64,000 bases of DNA from Tepidisphaeraceae bacterium (GTDB taxonomy: Bacteria; Planctomycetota; Phycisphaerae; Tepidisphaerales; Tepidisphaeraceae): assembly GCA_035998445.1 (NCBI GenBank), contig DASYHQ010000033.1, positions 62,001 through 126,000 of the forward strand, in the 5' to 3' direction. Within the stretch, counting starts at the first letter, position 1. Each line of letters starts with the position of its first letter. The notes beneath the pieces are model-generated. The model was not told the origin of the DNA. It worked only from the letters and a program-made list of their open reading frames with translations, and did not search any database. The position numbers and the translations under genes are program-made. Below, piece after piece: positions 31,149 to 33,719 of this stretch.

Positions 31149-32192
31149 TTAAGGTTTCGGCGTCACCCGTTGCGCCGTCGCGGCGTCGATATGACGGCGG
31201 AGGCCGTCGGGGTCGCACCATTGTTGGCGGGCGACGATCACGCCGTCGCGGCCGATGACGAACGCGCTGTGCGCGCCGGCCCGGAACTTCACCGCCACCG
31301 GATCGTCCAGTGAATCGACCGCGACCGCGCGCAGAGGCTTGAGGATCGCCCGCATGTTCTCGGCGGCGCTCATGCGGGCCGCCTCGTCGGGGTGGCGGGG
31401 GATCGAGACCTTATCGTCGCGATTGCGCGCCACGTCCCACTCGCCGGCCGGGTAGGCCTCTGCGGTGTAGATCGTGATGAACTCCGCTCGCCCTGAGTAT
31501 TCCTTCGCCAGCGCGTCCATCGCGATCGTCCGATACCGGAACGGCGGCGCTGAATAGCTGCCGAACTCGATCACCACCACGCGATTGGCAAATGCTGCAG
31601 ACTTCACTAGTCCCGATGGCAGACGCTTCAGCGTGAAATCGGGGATCGCGGCGCCCACGGCGCCGGTGAACGGGCCATCCGCGTTATCGATCGGCTTGTC
31701 GCTCGCGGCCGGTGTTGCGGCGGGGGCCGGTGTTTTATTCGCGATGGCGTCGGTGGCGACCGGTGGGGTCGCGGGCGGGGCGGTTGGCCGTACTTTCGGG
31801 GGTGGCGTTGGCGCCTGGGCCGCTGGTCGCGCCTGAACCTGCTGATGGTCGCGCAGGACTTTCTGTTGGTCGGGCGTCAGGATCTCCGCGAGCTTTCGGC
31901 GACCATCGCCCATCACCTGCCGATAGGTGTCGCGGCGATCCTCCGGCGCCAGGTTGGGCAGATCGCGCAACTGCGTGCGAAGCTCGGCCAACAGGGCGTC
32001 GGCCTTACTCTTCTGATCAGCCGACAGCCCCACGTGCGACAGGGCCGCCTCAAGCCGGTCGATGACCGGTTGTACGCTCACGCCGCGTTCGCTTGCGGGC
32101 ACGGTCGCCGGTGCCGTGGTCGGCATCGGTTGCGCAGTCGCCACTGCGTTCAATAGCAACAGCATCGCGATGGCAACGGGAGTGGATCGCAT
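31149..32192 (-). CDS. Deiodinase-like thioredoxin-fold protein with CpxP/Spy-like head
   Basis: A 347-residue exported protein. A signal peptide (residues 1-20) is followed by a helical region (about 40-118) ending KLAEILTPDQQKVL, like the LTxxQ motif of Spy/CpxP-type chaperones. An Ala-Pro-Thr linker comes next. From about residue 180 a thioredoxin-like domain follows, with VVVIEFGSYSAPPF (205-218) and FITIYTAEAYPAGEW (238-252). These match the core of iodothyronine deiodinases (GSCTUPPF and IYIEEAHxSDGW). In this protein Ala215 stands where deiodinases have selenocysteine or cysteine, so redox activity at that site is unlikely. It is convergent to the gene at 30636. Confidence 0.75.
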   Translation of the reverse strand: MRSTPVAIAMLLLLNAVATAQPMPTTAPATVPASERGVSVQPVIDRLEAALSHVGLSADQKSKADALLAELRTQLRDLPNLAPEDRRDTYRQVMGDGRRKLAEILTPDQQKVLRDHQQVQARPAAQAPTPPPKVRPTAPPATPPVATDAIANKTPAPAATPAASDKPIDNADGPFTGAVGAAIPDFTLKRLPSGLVKSAAFANRVVVIEFGSYSAPPFRYRTIAMDALAKEYSGRAEFITIYTAEAYPAGEWDVARNRDDKVSIPRHPDEAARMSAAENMRAILKPLRAVAVDSLDDPVAVKFRAGAHSAFVIGRDGVIVARQQWCDPDGLRRHIDAATAQRVTPKP

Positions 32193-32522
32193 TTGAATCC
32201 GGATTATACGCCACCGCGACCATGGCGGGCCAGCTCAAACGAAACGGGTCGGAAGAACGCGCAGGGTGGTTTCAAAGCCGACTTTTCCTTGTCCTCAAAT
32301 GACGGTCTTCGAACCGCTTCTTGTCACGTCCCGACAGCTTCCGATCGGCAAACGAACCGCGATGCGCCCGTTATCGGTCGCAATTGTTCCTGTCCCTTAC
32401 GCCACAGCAGTTTGACGCTTTCGCCCGACTGCGGCTATGCTGCCCAACCACCCAGCGTCTGACCGGTTCCATCGTCTTGGCGGAAGCGAAACCGGGGTCC
32501 GACCACAGCAGGAGCGCACCTG
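32193..32522. other. Non-coding region between divergent genes
   Basis: About 330 bases between the deiodinase-like gene and the PQQ-propeller gene, which point away from each other. Promoters for both must lie here, but no convincing box was seen. No repeat of the families described here and no RNA structure stands out. Confidence 0.5.
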
Positions 32523-33719
32523 GTGAACAAGCATCTTTCGACGGTCGTCTCGGGCATCGTTCTGTTGGCACTTGGCGCAGCGGGGTGCGCCAACCGGCCC
32601 GAACCACAGGCCGCCCCTGAACGGCCCGTCGTCCCCGTGAATCCGCCCGCCCTCATCCGCGAGTGGCGCGCACCGCTGGACCTGGGCGACAACCGCGTCA
32701 CCCAGTTGCACCTGAGCGACGATTACCTCTTCGTCTACACGAACAGCAACACCACCTACACGTTCGACCGCAAGTCGGGCACGCGCGTGTTCGTCACGCG
32801 GCTGAACGGTCGCCCGCAGCACGCGCCGGTCGTGTTAACCGACCTCATCGTCTACCCGACCGCCAGCACGCTTGAGGTGTACAACCGCCGGGGCCGGTTC
32901 GTGCGGTCGGTGGCGCTGGGTCACACGATTCGCACGGGCGCCGTGGTGGCCGCCAACCGCGTGGTGGTGGGCGTGGACGTCAACCGGCGCGGGCGCGTGC
33001 TGTTCGTCGACGTCACCCAGCCGTACCCGGACGTCACGCCGATCCTCACCATGGGCGGCCTGACCGCCCAGCCGGCAACCCGGCAAGGGCTGACGTTCAT
33101 CGGTTCCGAAGACGGCAGCGTCTACGCGATCTCACCGGAACTGGACGGCGCTTGGGCGCTGCCCGGCGGCGCGTTCGAGACCGCCGGCTCGATCGTTGGC
33201 GATCTCGCCGCCGACACCGGCACCACGGGCAACGTGTACGTCGCCAGCACCGACACCAAGCTGTACGCGCTGGCCGCCACCAGTGGGCAACTGCGCTGGC
33301 AGTACTACGCCGGCGCGGCGCTCACCACCGGCCCGACGGTGACGGCCGAGATGCTCTACCAGTTCGTGCCGGGCACGGGGCTGGTCGCGATCGACAAGAA
33401 CAACGGCGACGCGATCCGCGCAGCACGCTGGGCGATCATCGACGCCACCAAGCTGGTGGCCGAGGACGCGCAGCTCGCCTACGTGCTGGGCACGGGCAAC
33501 AAGGTATACGGCGTCGACAAGAAAACCGGCAAGGTCCGCTTCGTCTCGACGCGCGACGACCTGAGCGTCTTCGCCGAGAACACGACCGACGGCACCGTCT
33601 ACGCCGCCACCCCCGGTGGCGAGATCATCGCCGCCACGCCCGTGCTAACGCAGGGCAAGATGGGCGAACTGGTCCTGACGCCATCGCTGGATGGCACAGT
33701 GGTTTCGCGGGCGGAGTGA
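32523..33719 (+). CDS. PQQ-like beta-propeller lipoprotein
   Basis: A 398-residue protein starting with GTG at 32523, supported by an AGGAG site at about 32509-32513. The signal peptide ends in a lipobox-like GAAGC with Cys22, so it should be lipidated. The rest is a run of PQQ/quinoprotein-type propeller blades: YLFVYTNSNTTYTFDRKSG, TLEVYNRRGRFVRSVAL, LTFIGSEDGSVYAISPE, VYVASTDTKLYALAATSGQL and VYGVDKKTGKVRFVSTRD. The shape is like BamB, the outer-membrane assembly scaffold. There is no catalytic quinone-ligand pattern, so a binding or scaffold role is most likely. Confidence 0.85.
   Translation: MNKHLSTVVSGIVLLALGAAGCANRPEPQAAPERPVVPVNPPALIREWRAPLDLGDNRVTQLHLSDDYLFVYTNSNTTYTFDRKSGTRVFVTRLNGRPQHAPVVLTDLIVYPTASTLEVYNRRGRFVRSVALGHTIRTGAVVAANRVVVGVDVNRRGRVLFVDVTQPYPDVTPILTMGGLTAQPATRQGLTFIGSEDGSVYAISPELDGAWALPGGAFETAGSIVGDLAADTGTTGNVYVASTDTKLYALAATSGQLRWQYYAGAALTTGPTVTAEMLYQFVPGTGLVAIDKNNGDAIRAARWAIIDATKLVAEDAQLAYVLGTGNKVYGVDKKTGKVRFVSTRDDLSVFAENTTDGTVYAATPGGEIIAATPVLTQGKMGELVLTPSLDGTVVSRAE

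Follow-up and report, generated by a model that had tools for sequence, protein, structure and literature searches.

Bacterial deiodinase-like proteins containing selenocysteine (Sec) or Cys were described in 2005, and a redox role was proposed for them as a possibility (PMC1088965). According to a 2026 review, the deiodinase-like family belongs to the selenoproteins whose biological functions are largely unclear (PMC13188914). DIO3 possesses a described loop anchor, in which simulations assign a structural anchoring role to Glu200 (PMC7506546). In the planctomycete phylum sampled here, bacterial deiodinase-like proteins are common, with matches to PF00837 (deiodinase) in 73 of 199 genomes, mostly with one in-frame TGA. 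In the titles and abstract openings of open-licence texts, we found no report of a deiodinase-fold protein lacking both Sec and Cys, of a fusion between Spy and a deiodinase, or of a deiodinase-like protein in which Ser, Ala or Glu takes the place of selenocysteine.

The locus considered here lies in a 64,000-nucleotide stretch of DNA from a Tepidisphaeraceae bacterium (hereafter the window, meaning the whole of the stretch analysed), which is part of a 5.84-Mb genome in 64 contigs with an estimated completeness of 95.5%. It encodes a protein in which a Spy/LTXXQ-like helical head is fused to a deiodinase-like tail, and a gene for a PQQ-propeller protein is located beside it (Table 1). A search of the 26 available genomes from the window's family revealed this head-tail fusion in 11 of them. 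Relatives of the fusion protein have similar N-terminal starts by eye, and the export signal is putative. An AlphaFold2 model of the fusion protein, generated from alignment A2 (52 of 72 prepared rows), has a mean pLDDT of 82, with four helices at residues 41-121 (block means 88-97); most of the thioredoxin-like tail scores 94-98.

Table 1. Features of the fusion gene and its divergent neighbour, in coordinates of the window.
Feature	Position	Strand	Details
Spy/LTXXQ-head plus deiodinase-like-tail gene	31149..32192	-	Exact ORF, ATG start, 347 aa; Pfam, PDB chains, model
Signal-peptide-like start, residues 1-20	32133..32192	-	Hydrophobic stretch, then ATA-QP; recognised visually in the translated sequence
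Four-helix Spy/LTXXQ-like head, residues 41-121	31830..32072	-	LSADQ (56-60), LTPDQ (105-109)
Pro/Ala-rich linker, residues 122-174	31671..31829	-	Low model confidence; disordered
Deiodinase-like thioredoxin-fold tail, residues 175-344	31161..31670	-	Pfam, PDB chains, model
Ala215 (GCG)	31548..31550	-	Selenocysteine position
Tyr247	31452..31454	-	DIO3 has His202 here
Cys326	31215..31217	-	Sole cysteine of the protein (WCDP)
Promoter-like box	32412..32441		TTTGACG-(17-18)-TATxxT, upstream of the propeller gene
PQQ-propeller protein	32523..33719	+	Lipobox-like N-terminus (by eye); divergent from the fusion gene

Both sequence and structure comparisons place the tail next to the deiodinases. The fusion protein, which is the sole PF00837 match of its own genome, scores 49.3 bits against this Pfam family (cut-off 27, E 5.3e-13), well outside what chance would give, and AhpC-TSA and Redoxin stay below their curated cut-offs (16.8 and 16.1 bits vs 26 and 26.6). 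A phmmer search against PDB chains recovered DIO2 (E 1.1e-9) and DIO3 (E 3.2e-8), with Ala215 aligned to the Sec position. The same two enzymes are the top structural matches of the tail in the PDB, DIO3 at Z 20.3 (rmsd 3.0, 170 residues aligned) and DIO2 at rank 2 with Z 20.2 (rmsd 2.8, 167 aligned), trailed by DsbE/ResA-type chains at Z 19.0 and below. NF038285 (deiodinase_rel) gives 76.2 bits on the window protein, under its cut-off of 250, and is matched by all 52 rows of A2 at E<=0.001. The tail has in common with DIO3 (4tr3) and DIO2 (9h48) a PF00837 match over the cut-off, the thioredoxin fold and the Glu200/Tyr197/Ser167 anchor; in contrast to them, it lacks Sec or Cys at the site, carries Tyr for His202, has a changed residue at the Arg275 position, and forms part of a bacterial protein in which it is fused to a helical head. 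It also differs from the bacterial deiodinase-like proteins (PMC1088965, NF038285), since the proteins of that paper have Sec or Cys.

What is missing from the tail is a set of reactive and clamping residues of the active site. Within the motif GSYSAPPF, residue 215 is Ala, with no Cys in its vicinity, exactly as the first-pass annotation of this DNA had read it, and that annotation's idea of a thioredoxin-like fold retained without its redox residue agrees with the predicted fold and its DIO3 and DIO2 matches. Its broader claim of a match to the core of the iodothyronine deiodinases holds for the PF00837 score and the DIO2/DIO3 similarity, but not for the second motif, EAYPAGEW, which departs from the consensus in that Tyr247 replaces the functionally important His of EAHP. 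The tree described below includes 69 Sec-type rows, all of them with Sec and with the His of the His202 column, and 67 of them with the Glu of the Glu200 column. In the ten aligned family rows, the site is occupied by Ser (5), Cys (3) or Ala (2), and the His202 column by His (6), Tyr (3) or Phe (1). The Arg in column 309, which was equated with DIO3 Arg275 from the PDB-chain alignment in an assignment that is not firm, occurs in 51 of the 69 Sec rows vs none of the ten family rows. Pro of the 307 column (the cis-Pro position) is found in 66/69 Sec rows and 5/10 family rows, and is absent in the window protein. Five residues, namely Ser212, Tyr242, Glu245, Asn257 and Arg273, are invariant across the ten family rows, and Glu245, Tyr242 and Ser212 are the counterparts of Glu200, Tyr197 and Ser167 in the DIO3 loop anchor. 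The frame of the pocket is thus preserved, and its reactive and clamping residues are lost; with alanine at the position of the nucleophile, the protein probably binds something instead of performing redox chemistry. Sequencing error was considered as a source of Ala215 and rejected as a simple explanation, given that GCG is three changes away from TGA, TGC or TGT and that the site is also Ala in one other family member (L040, codon GCA) and Ser in six.

The possibility of concealed selenocysteine use was examined from two directions. In the window's genome, no match to selA (TIGR00474) was detected; the gene exceeds the cut-off in 5 of the 26 family genomes, and the only selA-positive genome among the 11 fusion carriers (G200) has Ser at the site. 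A candidate tRNA-Sec in the window's own genome was discarded, as its best RF01852 match, at 47 bits, is just at the gathering score and ARAGORN identifies it as tRNA-Ser (tga); RF01852 yielded 13 matches, and the four loci checked (L061, L062, L063 and L066) are all serine tRNAs. As a separate observation, L063 (G000:C52, about 99.7-102.8 kb) is a dense tRNA array with 22 tRNA genes in 3.1 kb. Hidden Sec in family relatives was likewise rejected: the TGA codons counted inside the matches of L034, L039, L041 and L042 are terminal stops, save one in the linker of L039, and the site codons encode Ser or Cys. The exceptional in-frame TGA of L039 (G209) lies between its LTXXQ heads and the tail; the gene may be split, the codon may be an error, or it may be read through.

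Across the 11 fusions of the family, the site is occupied by Ser in six (L034, L035, L036, L038, L039 and L041), by Cys in three (L033, L037 and L042) and by Ala in two (the window protein and L040), and never by Sec. A catalytic Cys in most close relatives would have spoken against the first-pass annotation, and the ten other fusions, with three Cys, six Ser and one Ala, show the opposite. The nearest relative (L033, 44% identical to the window protein) keeps both Cys and His, so the chemistry has not been lost throughout the family. An initial scan of genome contigs with the window protein as query had returned no relative; beyond the search table, matches with a locus and 20 further stretches were examined. 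The site table omits the repeat loci L001, L053-L056, L059, L060, L103-L112, L126 and L127. Left outside the tree were L069-L073, whose identical ORFs show them to duplicate L034, L035, L036, L038 and L039, together with L041 (interrupted by a run of N), L051 (a conventional redoxin), L079, L102, L150 and any second row that lacks the site column.

The resulting tree of 107 rows, which is unrooted and was built with the site column removed, unites the ten family rows in one clade (97/87). In two proteins from another family of the class, L113 and L077, a deiodinase-like tail likewise follows an LTXXQ head (31.1 and 28.8 bits, cut-off 24.3), but they differ from the window protein in keeping the active-site Cys and His. 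Constraining all 14 LTXXQ-headed rows to one group gave a result 6.4 log-likelihood units better than the free tree (p-AU 0.615), which is compatible with a single origin of the LTXXQ-deiodinase fusion. Grouping the seven Ser/Ala family rows costs 21 log-likelihood units at a p-AU of 0.117, a value that neither shows nor rejects one loss of the nucleophile as opposed to several in the window's family. Considering that Sec is the commonest residue in the wider sample and that Cys occurs in the LTXXQ-headed fusions of another family, Ala at the site is very probably, if not provably, derived on this unrooted tree; one reading would be a fused ancestor with Cys, followed by Cys loss in the window's family.

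A different replacement was found elsewhere in the same class (family code f84), where eight loci (L123, L125, L129 and L133-L137) form a clade with support of 100/99 and carry Glu at the selenocysteine position in 8/8 rows. Their motifs are GSLTEPAF and similar, His is kept, no LTXXQ head is present, and the Glu245, Asn257 and Arg273 columns contain the same residues in all eight. The dN/dS values of this clade (0.12-0.21; six pairs of five loci) mean that selection has preserved one form, at least, that lacks both Sec and Cys. Two further observations concern the wider set: L151 (G068) has Ser at the site within an otherwise Sec-bearing clade, another likely Sec loss, and L140-L145 of the same class, whose site reads GCLTC or GCLTU, constitute a divergent clade of deiodinase-like proteins, L140 having EF-hand domains in front of its deiodinase-like part.

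The head was analysed as part of a set of 33 modules, comprising the window's own and 32 others from family genomes. At E<=0.01, LTXXQ (PF07813) matches 29/33 and Metal_resist 7/33; the window's own module has no Pfam family match, including LTXXQ. A profile of the head alignment searched against the PDB identified E. coli Spy as best (4.9e-9), with CpxP further down (2.5e-4). Folded alone, the window head forms four helices with a pLDDT of 88, and its VIA-align Z scores for STV (9.9), Spy (8.3), CnrX (8.3) and CpxP (7.9) are modest, lying in a range (8-10) where the layout of the helices can by itself produce matches between bundles, although Spy, CpxP and CnrX rank among the top structural matches; Foldseek with the head alone produced no match at E<=0.001. 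The resemblance to periplasmic stress chaperones that had been suggested for the helical part is upheld for Spy/CpxP at the profile level, and the predicted four-helix fold is compatible with it. Relative to Spy and CpxP of the LTXXQ family (PF07813), the two LTXXQ-like motifs, the four helices and the profile match to Spy are common features, whereas the window head is a shorter single module, scores below the Pfam cut-off and is fused to a thioredoxin-fold tail. A small module HMM detected heads in all 11 family fusions and, among 119 deiodinase-like rows, in no other ORF except the duplicate loci L069-L073; the LTXXQ heads of L113 and L077, which are more distant, escape this HMM but are visible to Pfam. 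Seven of the 11 family fusions contain two head modules, and the window protein, L034, L036 and L040 contain one. As side observations, a further LTXXQ ORF lies just upstream of L036, and the only PF07813 match in the window's own genome (L183, G000:C55:28843-29127; 22.4 bits, cut-off 24.3) belongs to a different protein.

The divergent propeller gene has strong matches in 25 of the 26 family genomes and is essentially single-copy. Its product has PQQ repeats and a lipobox-like N-terminus in the manner of BamB, but scores only 53.2 bits against TIGR03300 (cut-off 285.2), too low for an assignment to BamB. A head protein lies divergently beside the propeller gene, within the fetched flank, in 10 of the 25 genomes, with a tail in six (G000, G218, G219, G204, G203 and G210) and without one in four (G208, G222, G214 and G201); an eleventh, tail-less pair occurs in G211, where the head match lies on the opposite strand, some 1.4 kb upstream. 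Strong head matches (E<=2e-16) were found in 20 family genomes, and 11 of these 20 are paired, including 6/11 with a tail and 5/9 without. For the unpaired tail carriers, head and propeller are on different contigs in G207, G209 and G215 and about 13 kb apart on one contig in G213, and G200 is fragmentary. Beside L076, L077, L113 and L114, no propeller neighbour was present within the DNA examined. The recurring unit is head plus propeller, and the deiodinase-like tail is optional; with five of 11 paired loci lacking a tail, the pairing says little about the tail itself, and adjacency of the two genes denotes linkage, not interaction. The promoter-like box was considered as a sign of co-regulation and set aside, because a similar box lies near propeller ORFs where no adjacent head gene was seen (L156, L157, L159, L166, L167 and L168); it belongs to the propeller gene and is uninformative on the fusion gene.

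From the domain make-up, the folds, the missing residues and the recurrence of the gene pair, all established computationally, we infer export, a binding activity, a partnership with the propeller protein and a shared process. In this reading, to which we assign a probability of roughly 0.55, the fusion is a chaperone or binding protein of the envelope, as the first-pass annotation had suggested, and has no redox function; its Spy-like head and pseudoenzyme tail would act with the propeller lipoprotein. The protein would be exported to the periplasm through its putative signal-peptide-like start, recognised by eye. There, the single Spy/LTXXQ-type head may bind envelope proteins at exposed or unfolded segments, independently of ATP, by analogy with Spy, and perhaps as a dimer, as suggested by the tandem heads in seven of the 11 family fusions. 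The tail has retained its fold and the Glu200-type loop anchor but has lost the nucleophile, catalytic His, clamp Arg and cis-proline; instead of catalysing redox or dehalogenation reactions, it would provide a module for docking or for binding a ligand. The fusion probably participates in the same process as the divergent PQQ-propeller lipoprotein, namely envelope protein handling.

Several other explanations have to be weighed against this one. If only the head matters, the tail could be an evolutionary remnant drifting under weak constraint after the loss of Sec/Cys, which would account for the free variation of the site and His columns and for the tail-less head genes at the same locus in relatives. 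Such drift is unlikely in view of twelve columns that are invariant among ten rows (26-41% identity to the window), the confident tail model, and the dN/dS range of the related Glu-site clade, which is also without Sec/Cys; the window's family itself contains no close pair. Alternatively, the tail may still be an enzyme of another chemistry that operates through Glu245 and its neighbours, and in relatives also through the Glu or Ser of the site, in place of a thiol or selenol. The constancy of Glu245, Asn257 and Arg273 in both groups and the fixed Glu of one clade fit this view, yet it appears improbable when set against the anchoring role of Glu200 in the DIO3 simulations, the chemical inertness of Ala at the site and the interchange of Ser, Cys and Ala within the family.

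Redox activity of the tail through Cys326 or the thiol of a partner is very improbable: Cys326 is common to the window protein, L033 and L038, but Cys occupies this column in just those 3 of the 10 aligned family rows, no second Cys exists, and cis-Pro and His are lost. Equally slight odds are given to a metal-binding or metal-sensing head of the CnrX/Metal_resist type in place of a chaperone. Metal_resist does match seven of the 33 modules, and the CnrX structures (Z 8.3 and 8.0) rival those of Spy (8.3 and 8.1); LTXXQ, however, matches 29, Spy leads the sequence profile search, and the window head contains two His, one Met and no Cys.

A protein that keeps the deiodinase fold and loop anchor and discards the nucleophile separates binding from chemistry, and raises the question of what an unreactive pocket holds. 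Both the Spy-like head and the propeller lipoprotein that recurs beside it suggest a role in the handling of envelope proteins, a process about which, to our knowledge, little is known in planctomycetes. More speculatively, and with considerable doubt, the deiodinase fold may have been freed from selenium/sulfur chemistry more than once in the Phycisphaerae, by Ser/Ala in the Spy-headed envelope proteins of one family and by an invariant Glu in the form found in another, much of the pocket being retained. If true, this would reveal new non-redox functions (binding or Glu-based catalysis) for a fold that works by selenol/thiol chemistry in its studied members.
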